Assembly (NCBI GenBank): GCA_036279355.1
Contig: DASUJH010000060.1
Coordinates: forward strand, 1-64,000
DNA from: Gemmatimonadales bacterium
GTDB lineage: Bacteria; Gemmatimonadota; Gemmatimonadetes; Gemmatimonadales; GWC2-71-9
Direction of reading: 5' to 3'
DNA length: 64,000 nt
Below, one piece after another: positions 23,075 to 33,931 of the stretch (the stretch's first letter is position 1; every line of letters starts with the position of its first letter). The notes under the pieces are model-generated. The model made no database searches. It worked only from the letters and a program-made list of their open reading frames with translations, and had not been told where the DNA came from. Position numbers and translations under genes: made by a program.

Positions 23075-23173
23075 TGCCCCAGGTCCGAAGGGCGCCGGCG
23101 CGTGAACCGCGTCAGGACCTCGCCGGTAGCAGCGCTAAGCGATGTCCGGTGTTGCTTCGGGGTGCCTGGGGCA
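23075..23173 (+). ncRNA. ffs: Small bacterial signal recognition particle RNA (4.5S RNA)
   Basis: About 99 bases that close by pairing of TGCCCCAGG (23075-23083) with CCTGGGGCA (23165-23173). Inner helices are CCGAAG/CTTCGG and GCGCCGG with CCGGTGT. The conserved SRP core follows: GTGAACC, TCAGG opposite AGCAG (the Ffh-binding symmetric loop) and the CTAAGCG strand. It guides membrane-protein nascent chains to the membrane with Ffh and FtsY. Its place just before dnaX is the classic bacterial order. Odd: between TCAGG and AGCAG the sequence is ACCTCGCCGGT, which folds as ACC/GGT with a five-base TCGCC loop, not the usual GNRA-type tetraloop. Confidence 0.9.
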
Positions 23174-23178
23174 ACTTT

Positions 23179-23289
23179 CATGGGCGGTAGAGACGATAGA
23201 GGCGGTAGGGGCGGCAGGGAGCTCCGCCGGTCGAGTCCCTACCGCCCTTACCGCCTCTACCGCCCTCACGGCCTTTTCTACCGCCCATG
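23179..23289. repeat. Long imperfect inverted repeat built of GGCGGTAG/CTACCGCC units
   Basis: The left arm (23179-23220) starts CATGGGCGGTAGAG and the right arm (23236-23289) ends CTACCGCCCATG. The inner 20 bases of the arms pair with one mismatch and one G-T. The outer part pairs less evenly. The unit CTACCGCC or TTACCGCC recurs every 8-9 bases in the right arm. The last ATG of the right arm is the start codon of dnaX, so in RNA the hairpin would bury that start. It may be a terminator for ffs, a mobile palindromic repeat or a translational control. Confidence 0.75.
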
Positions 23290-24918
23290 CAGATCGCGTT
23301 AGCCCGCAAGTACCGTCCGAAGCGCTTCTCAGACCTTCTTGCGCAAGACCATGTCAGCGCCTTGCTCAGGGGCGCGGTGGCTCGCGACCGGGTGGGGCAC
23401 GCTTACCTGTTGACCGGCCCGCGCGGGGTGGGGAAGACGACCGTGGCCCGCATCCTTGCCATGGCGCTCAACTGTCCCCATCGGCCGGAGTCGGGTGAGG
23501 GAGCGGACGACCTCGCGGGCGAGCCGTGCGGCGTGTGTGAGGACTGCCAGCGGATCTGGAACGGCTCGGCCAACCTCGACGTGGTCGAGATCGACGCGGC
23601 GAGCAACCGCGGCGTCGACGATGCGCGCGAGCTGCGCGAGCGCGCGATGTACGCGCCGTCGAAAGAGGGCCGGTACAAGGTCTACATCGTGGACGAGGCG
23701 CACATGCTCACGCGCGAGGCGTGGAATGCGCTGCTCAAGATCCTGGAGGAGCCGCCGAAGCGCGTCGTCTTCGTGTTCGCTACGACCGATCCGCAGAGGA
23801 TCGCGGCGGCGGCAGCACCCGTGCTCTCCCGGCTCCAGCGGTTCGATTTCCGCCGCATCGGCCCCGCCGCGATCCGCGACCGGCTTCGCGCCGTGCTGAA
23901 GGAAGAGGAGATCTCGGCCGACGACGACGCGCTCACGCTCATCGCCCGCCACGCCGACGGGGGCATGCGCGACGGCCTCTCGATGCTCGACCAGTGCCTG
24001 AGCCTGGGTGAGGGCGCGGTGACCGCCGCGCGGGTGCGTGAGGTGCTGGGCCTCGCCGGCGACGAGCTGTTCGCCGAGCTGCTCAGTCTCGTCGCCGAGC
24101 GCCGCCCGGCCGGCGTCTTCCCTCTGGTCGAGCGCCTGATGGAATCGGGCGCCGACCTGGCCGAGTTCATGTCCGGCGCCGCCGACACCTGCCGCTCATT
24201 GCTCCAATTGCAGCTCGGCGGCGACCCCGACGGCCTCACCGAGGCCATGCGTAACACCCTCGCCGCCTACCGCGATCGCCTGGAGCCCGGCGACCTCCTC
24301 CGCATGCTTCGCCTCTCGGCCGAGCAGGAGGCCGCAATCCGGCGGAGCGCCAACTCGCGCCTCGTCGTCGAGACTCTGCTTTTGCGCTGGACGATGATGG
24401 ACCGCATCGTGGATTTGCGGGAGGTGATCTCCGGCACCCCGCCGGCCGAGCCCCCGTCCCTTTCTGCGCCGCGACCCCGCACCGAGCGTACCGCGCCGAG
24501 CGATCCCGCCGCGCCGCCGAGCGCCCCGATCGCGTTCGCGCTCGACTCCCTCCGCGCCGAGTGGCCCGCGCTCGTTACGGCCGTCCGCACAAGGGCCCAG
24601 TTCCTCGGGGAAGCGCTGGCCCTCGCCACCCCAGTCGAGGCCGCACCGCCCAAGCTCGCCATCGAGCTGCCCGCCGCGAGCGCCTATTTCGCCCGCATGC
24701 TGGAGGAGAAAGCCGCGCAGATCGAAGAGGTGCTGGCGCGCGTGCTCGCCCAGCCCGTACGCCTCGCCGTCGCCGTCACGTCGGCGGACGGCTCCGCCGA
24801 CCGCCCCGAGCGCCTCACCGAGAGCGCCAGCCGGGCCGAGCGCCTGCGCCGCCTTCGAGACCGGGACCCGGCCCTCGACACGGCGGCCGACGCGTTAGAT
24901 TTGGAGATCGTCGAGTAG
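23287..24918 (+). CDS. dnaX: DNA polymerase III subunits gamma and tau
   Basis: 543 residues; the clamp-loader motor of the replisome. The AAA+ module shows the opening LARKYRPKRFSDLLAQDHV, Walker A GPRGVGKTT (near residues 45-53), a four-Cys zinc module between about 62 and 86 (with EPCGVCEDC), Walker B VYIVDEAHML, sensor-1 VFATTDPQRI and LSRLQRF as the SRC-like arginine-finger element. A Pro-rich linker (about 385-405) leads to a C-terminal domain that would be tau-specific. Its ATG is the end of an inverted repeat and has no clear Shine-Dalgarno. No slippery A-run was seen, so a separate gamma product is not evident. Confidence 0.96.
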   Translation: MQIALARKYRPKRFSDLLAQDHVSALLRGAVARDRVGHAYLLTGPRGVGKTTVARILAMALNCPHRPESGEGADDLAGEPCGVCEDCQRIWNGSANLDVVEIDAASNRGVDDARELRERAMYAPSKEGRYKVYIVDEAHMLTREAWNALLKILEEPPKRVVFVFATTDPQRIAAAAAPVLSRLQRFDFRRIGPAAIRDRLRAVLKEEEISADDDALTLIARHADGGMRDGLSMLDQCLSLGEGAVTAARVREVLGLAGDELFAELLSLVAERRPAGVFPLVERLMESGADLAEFMSGAADTCRSLLQLQLGGDPDGLTEAMRNTLAAYRDRLEPGDLLRMLRLSAEQEAAIRRSANSRLVVETLLLRWTMMDRIVDLREVISGTPPAEPPSLSAPRPRTERTAPSDPAAPPSAPIAFALDSLRAEWPALVTAVRTRAQFLGEALALATPVEAAPPKLAIELPAASAYFARMLEEKAAQIEEVLARVLAQPVRLAVAVTSADGSADRPERLTESASRAERLRRLRDRDPALDTAADALDLEIVE

Positions 24919-33384: not shown

Positions 33385-33931
33385 CAAGCCCTCCGGGAGA
33401 TGGTCGAAACTGCGGGCCATCCGCCATTCGGCGGACGCCGCACCCATTGACCGACTCCCAGACGCGCTCGACGCGTCGCGGACCACCTTCGGCACCGAGC
33501 TATCTCACCGGTCCTCTGATGAGACCCCTGGTTTTGCGGCCCCGGATCGCTCCGGGTGTGCTCTTATCGGGCAGTCGGTTTTTTTGTTGGTGCGCCGGCA
33601 GGTTGCCCGGCGCGCTCGCCCGTCGCAACGGATGTGCCGGGGTACGAAGCGCAACCGATGGCAGCGCAGCGGCGGCGACCGACGCAGCGCACACGCGAGT
33701 GGGAGAAGGCGTTAGCCCCTGCCCGCTCCGAAGTGCGCCACGCCTTGCGCGGATGCCCGGCTGGGCCAGCTCCTGCAATCCGCTAACGGATTGCATTTCC
33801 TCCGCGCAACTGATTGCAGCGGGCGGCCTCGGCGGACCCGCTCGCGCGGCGGTCCGGGCGCTGTGCATCCGGCAGCGGCGCGGCCGGCCGGGTATGGCGA
33901 TTGCCTCGCGTCGTCTCGTCCATCCCGCGGA
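33385..33931. other. 547-base gap between divergent genes with palindrome
   Basis: This gap separates the lipoprotein/TPR unit from the divergent TPR/HD-GYP gene. It contains CCCGGA-TCGC-TCCGGG near 33541-33556, a run of seven T at about 33580, and the palindrome listed separately. No protein-like reading frame is convincing. Promoters for both directions must lie here, but no clean -35/-10 pair was found. Confidence 0.5.
33774..33795. promoter_or_regulatory. Perfect 9-bp palindrome, possible operator
   Basis: TGCAATCCG (33774-33782) and CGGATTGCA (33787-33795) are exact inverted repeats around CTAA. A further half site, GATTGCA, follows about 20 bases later. The lack of a T-run and the place 137 bases before the TPR/HD-GYP start suggest a protein-binding site more than a terminator. 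Confidence 0.45.

Follow-up and report, generated by a model that had tools for sequence, protein, structure and literature searches.

Five-base apical loops in the SRP RNA of Gemmatimonadota and their possible relation to FtsY

Five-base apical loops are the normal state of SRP RNA in the phylum Gemmatimonadota, which makes them broader in distribution than first thought. We found them in 139 of 183 genomes (55 of 69 genera), with four-base loops in the other 44. The SRP RNA analyzed here has the loop UCGCC. On balance we consider it probable that this is an ordinary SRP RNA with the five-base loop typical of its phylum, that the loop adopts a GNRA/URRC-like turn with an extra base, and that FtsY still docks on it. 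The GGAA tetraloop is regarded as the near-universal bacterial handle for recruitment of the SRP receptor, and also as a drug target. Gemmatimonadota offer a natural mutant series of this handle, with GGAA, GGCA, GAAA, GAGA, UAAC and UAGC as well as some nine or more pentaloops, each accompanied by its own FtsY. Such a series would show what counts in the loop, be it the turn, the exposed G or the pair of end bases. No earlier description of five-base loops in Gemmatimonadota was found in the literature searched, which covered few SRP papers, and priority is not established.

The SRP RNA gene and its apical hairpin

The gene, a small bacterial SRP RNA gene (ffs/4.5S-type), lies on the forward strand at positions 23077-23174 of the window, by which we mean the whole stretch of 64,000 nucleotides analyzed. 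It matches RF00169 from end to end, model positions 1-97 of 97 being covered, and scores 45.4 bits where the gathering threshold is 40 (E 1.4e-6); it is the only SRP RNA copy in the genome. The conserved symmetric loop that binds Ffh can be recognized from the sequence and from an alignment with 39 relatives: GUCAGG (23111-23116) forms its 5' side and AGCAGC (23128-23133) its 3' side. This core has its flanking helices, and both Ffh and FtsY are encoded in the same genome, as is expected for a bacterial small SRP RNA. In its length of about 98 nt, its core, its closing helix, its covarying stems and its single copy the RNA resembles other RF00169 members, and it differs from the consensus in having a five-base rather than a four-base apical loop. 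It is best read as a functional, ordinary member of the family with a variant apical loop.

The apical hairpin consists of ACC (23117-23119), the loop UCGCC (23120-23124; U1, C2, G3, C4, C5) and GGU (23125-23127). The original prediction had placed this five-base loop where a GNRA-type tetraloop is usual, and the RF00169 score, the fold and the covariation of the stem bear it out. The cmscan alignment to RF00169, which had been proposed as a check, has five loop positions where the model has four, and the compilation of loops across the phylum agrees. When the apical stretch is folded by itself, it forms a stem of 3 bp with a loop of 5 nt. Among 39 aligned related SRP RNAs, every countable cell of the apical stem (100%) is paired, the lowest pair being A-U in 28, G-C in 8 and C-G in 3. 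Since this pair varies while pairing is kept, the boundaries of the loop are fixed by covariation and not by a single sequence; the stem is preserved through compensatory changes. The structure outscores all 500 shuffles in covariation and also surpasses all slid versions. A chance match of the SRP model is ruled out by the RF00169 score together with this covariation. Minimum-energy folding of the whole RNA did not recover the SRP fold, which is expected given its non-canonical internal loops, and its result was left unused.

As the source is a draft genome of 60 contigs, the loop might be suspected of being an error of sequencing or assembly. However, 17 of the 183 genomes have the identical UCGCC loop, and it recurs in public MAGs that were assembled independently (for example L067, L071 and L079). 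Such recurrence in independent assemblies rules out a base-calling error in practice, and we regard an artefact of any kind as extremely improbable.

Downstream of the SRP RNA, on the same strand, is dnaX (23287-24918; DNA polymerase III gamma/tau; NF004046, 415.8 bits over cut-off). A synteny scan found dnaX in this position at 15 of 30 loci checked, the present locus included. The two genes are separated by a near-perfect palindrome of 113 nt (23178-23290) containing TACCGCC/GGCGGTA nonamers, with a folding energy of -79.1 kcal/mol (z -8.5), and the ATG of dnaX sits inside its right end. The palindrome belongs to an interspersed family of hairpins that has 22 pattern matches at about 15 sites in the genome. 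Most relatives that share the gene order have dnaX nearer to the SRP RNA than it is at this palindrome-bearing locus. Elsewhere in the window there is a c-di-GMP-I riboswitch (33488-33572, reverse strand, 48.7 bits).

Loop sequences in Gemmatimonadota and beyond

Near-identical SRP RNAs in named public records indicate that the source genome is a member of Gemmatimonadota. Loops were compiled by pattern and covariance searches, and fifteen distinct sequences were found in the 183 genomes. The pentaloops are CCGAA (49 genomes), CCGCA (38), UCGCC (17), GUGCA (11), UUGCC (10), GUGAA (9) and a few others; the tetraloops are GAAA (29), GGAA (5), GAGA (3), UAAC (3), GGCA (2) and UAGC (2). Relatives carrying GGAA, together with deviating raw reads, had been named in the original prediction as what would speak against the loop. 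Among the 183 genomes, GGAA was found in the 5 just listed.

The pentaloops obey strict sequence rules, with the consensus [C/U/G][C/U]G[C/A][A/C]. When each loop type is counted once per genus, which gives 65 pentaloop types, G occupies position 3 in all 65, a pyrimidine invariably fills position 2, and position 4 is restricted to A or C. The two end bases are coupled: they are C..A in 32 types, U..C in 18 and G..A in 13, with 2 exceptions, and the association of U1 with C5 has a Fisher p of 7e-14, a value uncorrected for kinship. The tetraloops of the phylum have end pairs that also occur in the pentaloops, namely G..A in 16 (GNRA-type) and U..C in 2 (URRC-type). The fixed G3, the coupled ends and the fixed stem all fit a GNRA-like turn to which one base has been added.

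Closely related loops of different length suggest where a base may have been gained or lost. On the FtsY tree, GGAA/GGCA adjoin GUGAA as a sister pair. Within single genera, GGCA is found along with CCGCA/UCGCA, and UAAC/UAGC along with one UCGCC genome. GUGAA set beside GGAA, and CCGCA beside GGCA, point to the second base as the extra one, so that G3 would correspond to the second G of GGAA. Comparison of UCGCC with UAGC in one genus suggests that it is the fourth base instead.

Beyond the phylum, we scanned a genome collection with one genome per species (84,980 species), which returned at least 117 stretches. The scan pattern held the core GTCAGG/AGCAGC fixed and may miss rare cases elsewhere. 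Among the matches listed, five-base loops are nearly confined to Gemmatimonadota. A wide occurrence of the pentaloop in other phyla is not supported: apart from the records described next, those stretches among the matches listed that come from outside Gemmatimonadota have no SRP-like flanks on inspection and look like chance hits. When ten of the scan stretches were submitted to cmscan, two of them (L096 and L101) proved to be SRP RNAs. One record titled Gammaproteobacteria (SB0675_bin_31, L164) has a typical Gemmatimonadota SRP RNA with a GUGCA loop and is probably a mislabelled or mis-binned MAG. A further record (L142) has, on its reverse strand near 1.9 kb, the SRP-like core GUCAGGGCC-CCGCA-GGCAGCAGC; the record also holds a tRNA gene cluster, and Rfam gives no SRP RNA match to this core. 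The sole weak candidate outside Gemmatimonadota among the matches listed is a CCGCA-loop SRP RNA at positions 1630-1729 of L080, with 27.3 bits, below the gathering score.

FtsY and the re-shaped tip of the RNA

How could a five-base loop serve a receptor known to use four? The E. coli loop takes hold of FtsY in an early complex; the GTPases then relocate to the RNA's distal end, where hydrolysis is triggered (PMC4737761, PMC5454536). The FtsY basic patch K399, R402, K405 and K406 is reported to contact the RNA (PMC11404819), and so are S362 and D366 around F365, residue 366 being reported to take part in RNA recognition (PMC6059433). The genome under study encodes Ffh (C19:50237-51517; TIGR00959, 554 bits, over cut-off) and, on the same contig as the SRP RNA, FtsY (C60:234388-235203, L181; TIGR00064, 321 bits, over cut-off). 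Aligned to E. coli FtsY and numbered accordingly, this FtsY retains W343, F365, D366, K399, R402 and V403 and departs from E. coli in having R for K406 and A for both K405 and S362.

The original prediction had taken the altered loop to imply either a corresponding change in FtsY or a weaker dependence on it, and had proposed that the contacting residues be inspected. Inspection found most of them kept, and neither alternative is supported by the proteins compared. Of the 109 FtsY proteins compared from Gemmatimonadota, 108 conserve K399, 107 conserve R402, and all have V403 and W343; no split between five-base and four-base loops was found in the conservation of K399/R402. A matching change in the basic patch is ruled out, its residues K399 and R402 being near-invariant across both loop lengths. 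As FtsY retains most of the residues known to contact the loop, targeting by SRP is probably normal despite the altered shape of the RNA tip.

The same conservation bears on the idea that Gemmatimonadota have lost the FtsY tether. If contact with the loop were no longer needed, the loop would be free to drift in length and sequence, and the receptor would rely on the distal site and on contacts between proteins. The best FtsY tree implies no fewer than 12 changes of loop length, which speaks for such drift, as do the fifteen loop sequences in the phylum. But drift would hold neither G3 in every pentaloop type nor the coupling of the end bases, and the K399/R402 patch is near-invariant. We consider this loss improbable.

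In our preferred reading, a docked pentaloop, UCGCC would most likely fold as a GNRA/URRC-like turn. Its first and last bases would lie opposite one another, as U..C in UCGCC and as G..A or C..A in the loops of relatives; an additional base, presumably one of the two suggested above, would be looped out, and the invariant G3 would be presented at the place of the second G in GGAA. FtsY, with its K399/R402 patch and Asp366, would dock on this five-base tip to give the early SRP-receptor complex, and would afterwards move to the distal site.

There are precedents for parts of this scheme. Known GNRA-like pentaloops, with one base looped out, have this base at four insertion sites, three of which contact protein, and UMAC loops take a GNRA-like fold (PMC12550061). 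The pentaloops of phage boxB (PMC12550061) share with UCGCC the five bases and a purine at position 3, and they are read by a protein; GUGAA and GUGCA of the relatives fit GNRNA by sequence. UCGCC itself has neither G1 nor A5, since it starts with U and ends with C; boxB is moreover another RNA with another partner. With five bases it is not a GNRA tetraloop (G-N-R-A) either. It resembles URRC/UMAC tetraloops in its U..C ends, and two such loops, UAAC and UAGC, occur in another genus of the same family; it differs from them in its length and in having G at position 3. Compared with E. coli 4.5S RNA and its FtsY, the genome has C-G pairs beneath the loop and the receptor residues K399, R402, V403, F365 and D366, and it differs in having UCGCC for GGAA, with U..C instead of G..A ends and one more base. 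In moss chloroplast SRP RNA (PMC5115805) the tetraloop has also been abandoned in an otherwise standard SRP RNA; there the loop is of about 10 nt and cpSRP54 binding is weak, whereas the Gemmatimonadota loops have five bases and strict sequence rules.

Residue 366 of FtsY and the loop G

One FtsY residue does vary with the loop. We ranked all FtsY columns by their association with G at position 3 of a pentaloop or position 2 of a tetraloop. Residue 366 had been singled out by eye before the ranking, which still covers every column; it came first of 279 columns when all 103 rows were used, and in family f2 alone it took second place of 280, with column 297 about equal to it there. An acidic residue 366 (Asp or Glu) accompanies the loop G in 67 of 74 genomes and is found in 7 of 29 genomes that have no such G. 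Of the 22 genomes with GAAA loops, 21 have Ser, Gln, Thr or Asn at this residue. Residue 366 tracks the presence of the loop G and not the length of the loop; outside family f2 no association with loop length was found (rank 167 of 280). The placing of the extra base at the second position, as suggested by two of the comparisons above, agrees with this association.

Another potential explanation is that loop and FtsY, chiefly at residue 366, evolve jointly, and that the base-specific contact has shifted from that of E. coli. The ranks of residue 366 and the single acidic residue among the 22 GAAA genomes argue for it. Against it, independent changes on the FtsY tree are few: on a tree built without column 366, three independent pairs of loop G and residue 366 fall on well-supported branches, and the sign test, which is underpowered, is not significant. 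The rule is also broken. Asp is found with loops that have no such G, namely GAAA (G229), GAGA (G021) and UAAC/UAGC, and non-acidic residues with loops that have it: Ser or Asn accompanies UCGCC (G223, G080, G241), and Asn accompanies CCGAA. Moreover, residue 366 in the source genome is Asp as in E. coli. We think such joint evolution unlikely.

Tetraloops without the G are nearly limited to families f1 and f2, and a class-wide search for more of them added no clear independent lineages beyond these two, so Gemmatimonadota alone are insufficient to settle the link. The association at residue 366, which comes largely from one family and involves few independent branches, is a lead. A tentative and rather doubtful extension of it would be that the phylum swapped the SRP tetraloop for a GNRA-like pentaloop with covarying ends and a fixed G read by FtsY residue 366, loop and receptor being co-adapted. 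If correct, the natural variants would allow the reading of the G by Asp366 to be tested.

The Ffh-binding core has its own variants. In five genera of family f2 (g38, g48, g50, g63 and g68; for example L005, L008, L015 and L016), GUCAGG is replaced by GCCAGG together with replacement of AGCAGC by AGCAAC. Both strands are hit together, which makes this a coupled change of the symmetric loop in a core that is otherwise fixed. Further single departures in the core motif are GUGAGG in L048 and L049 and GUCAGAG in L053 and L054.
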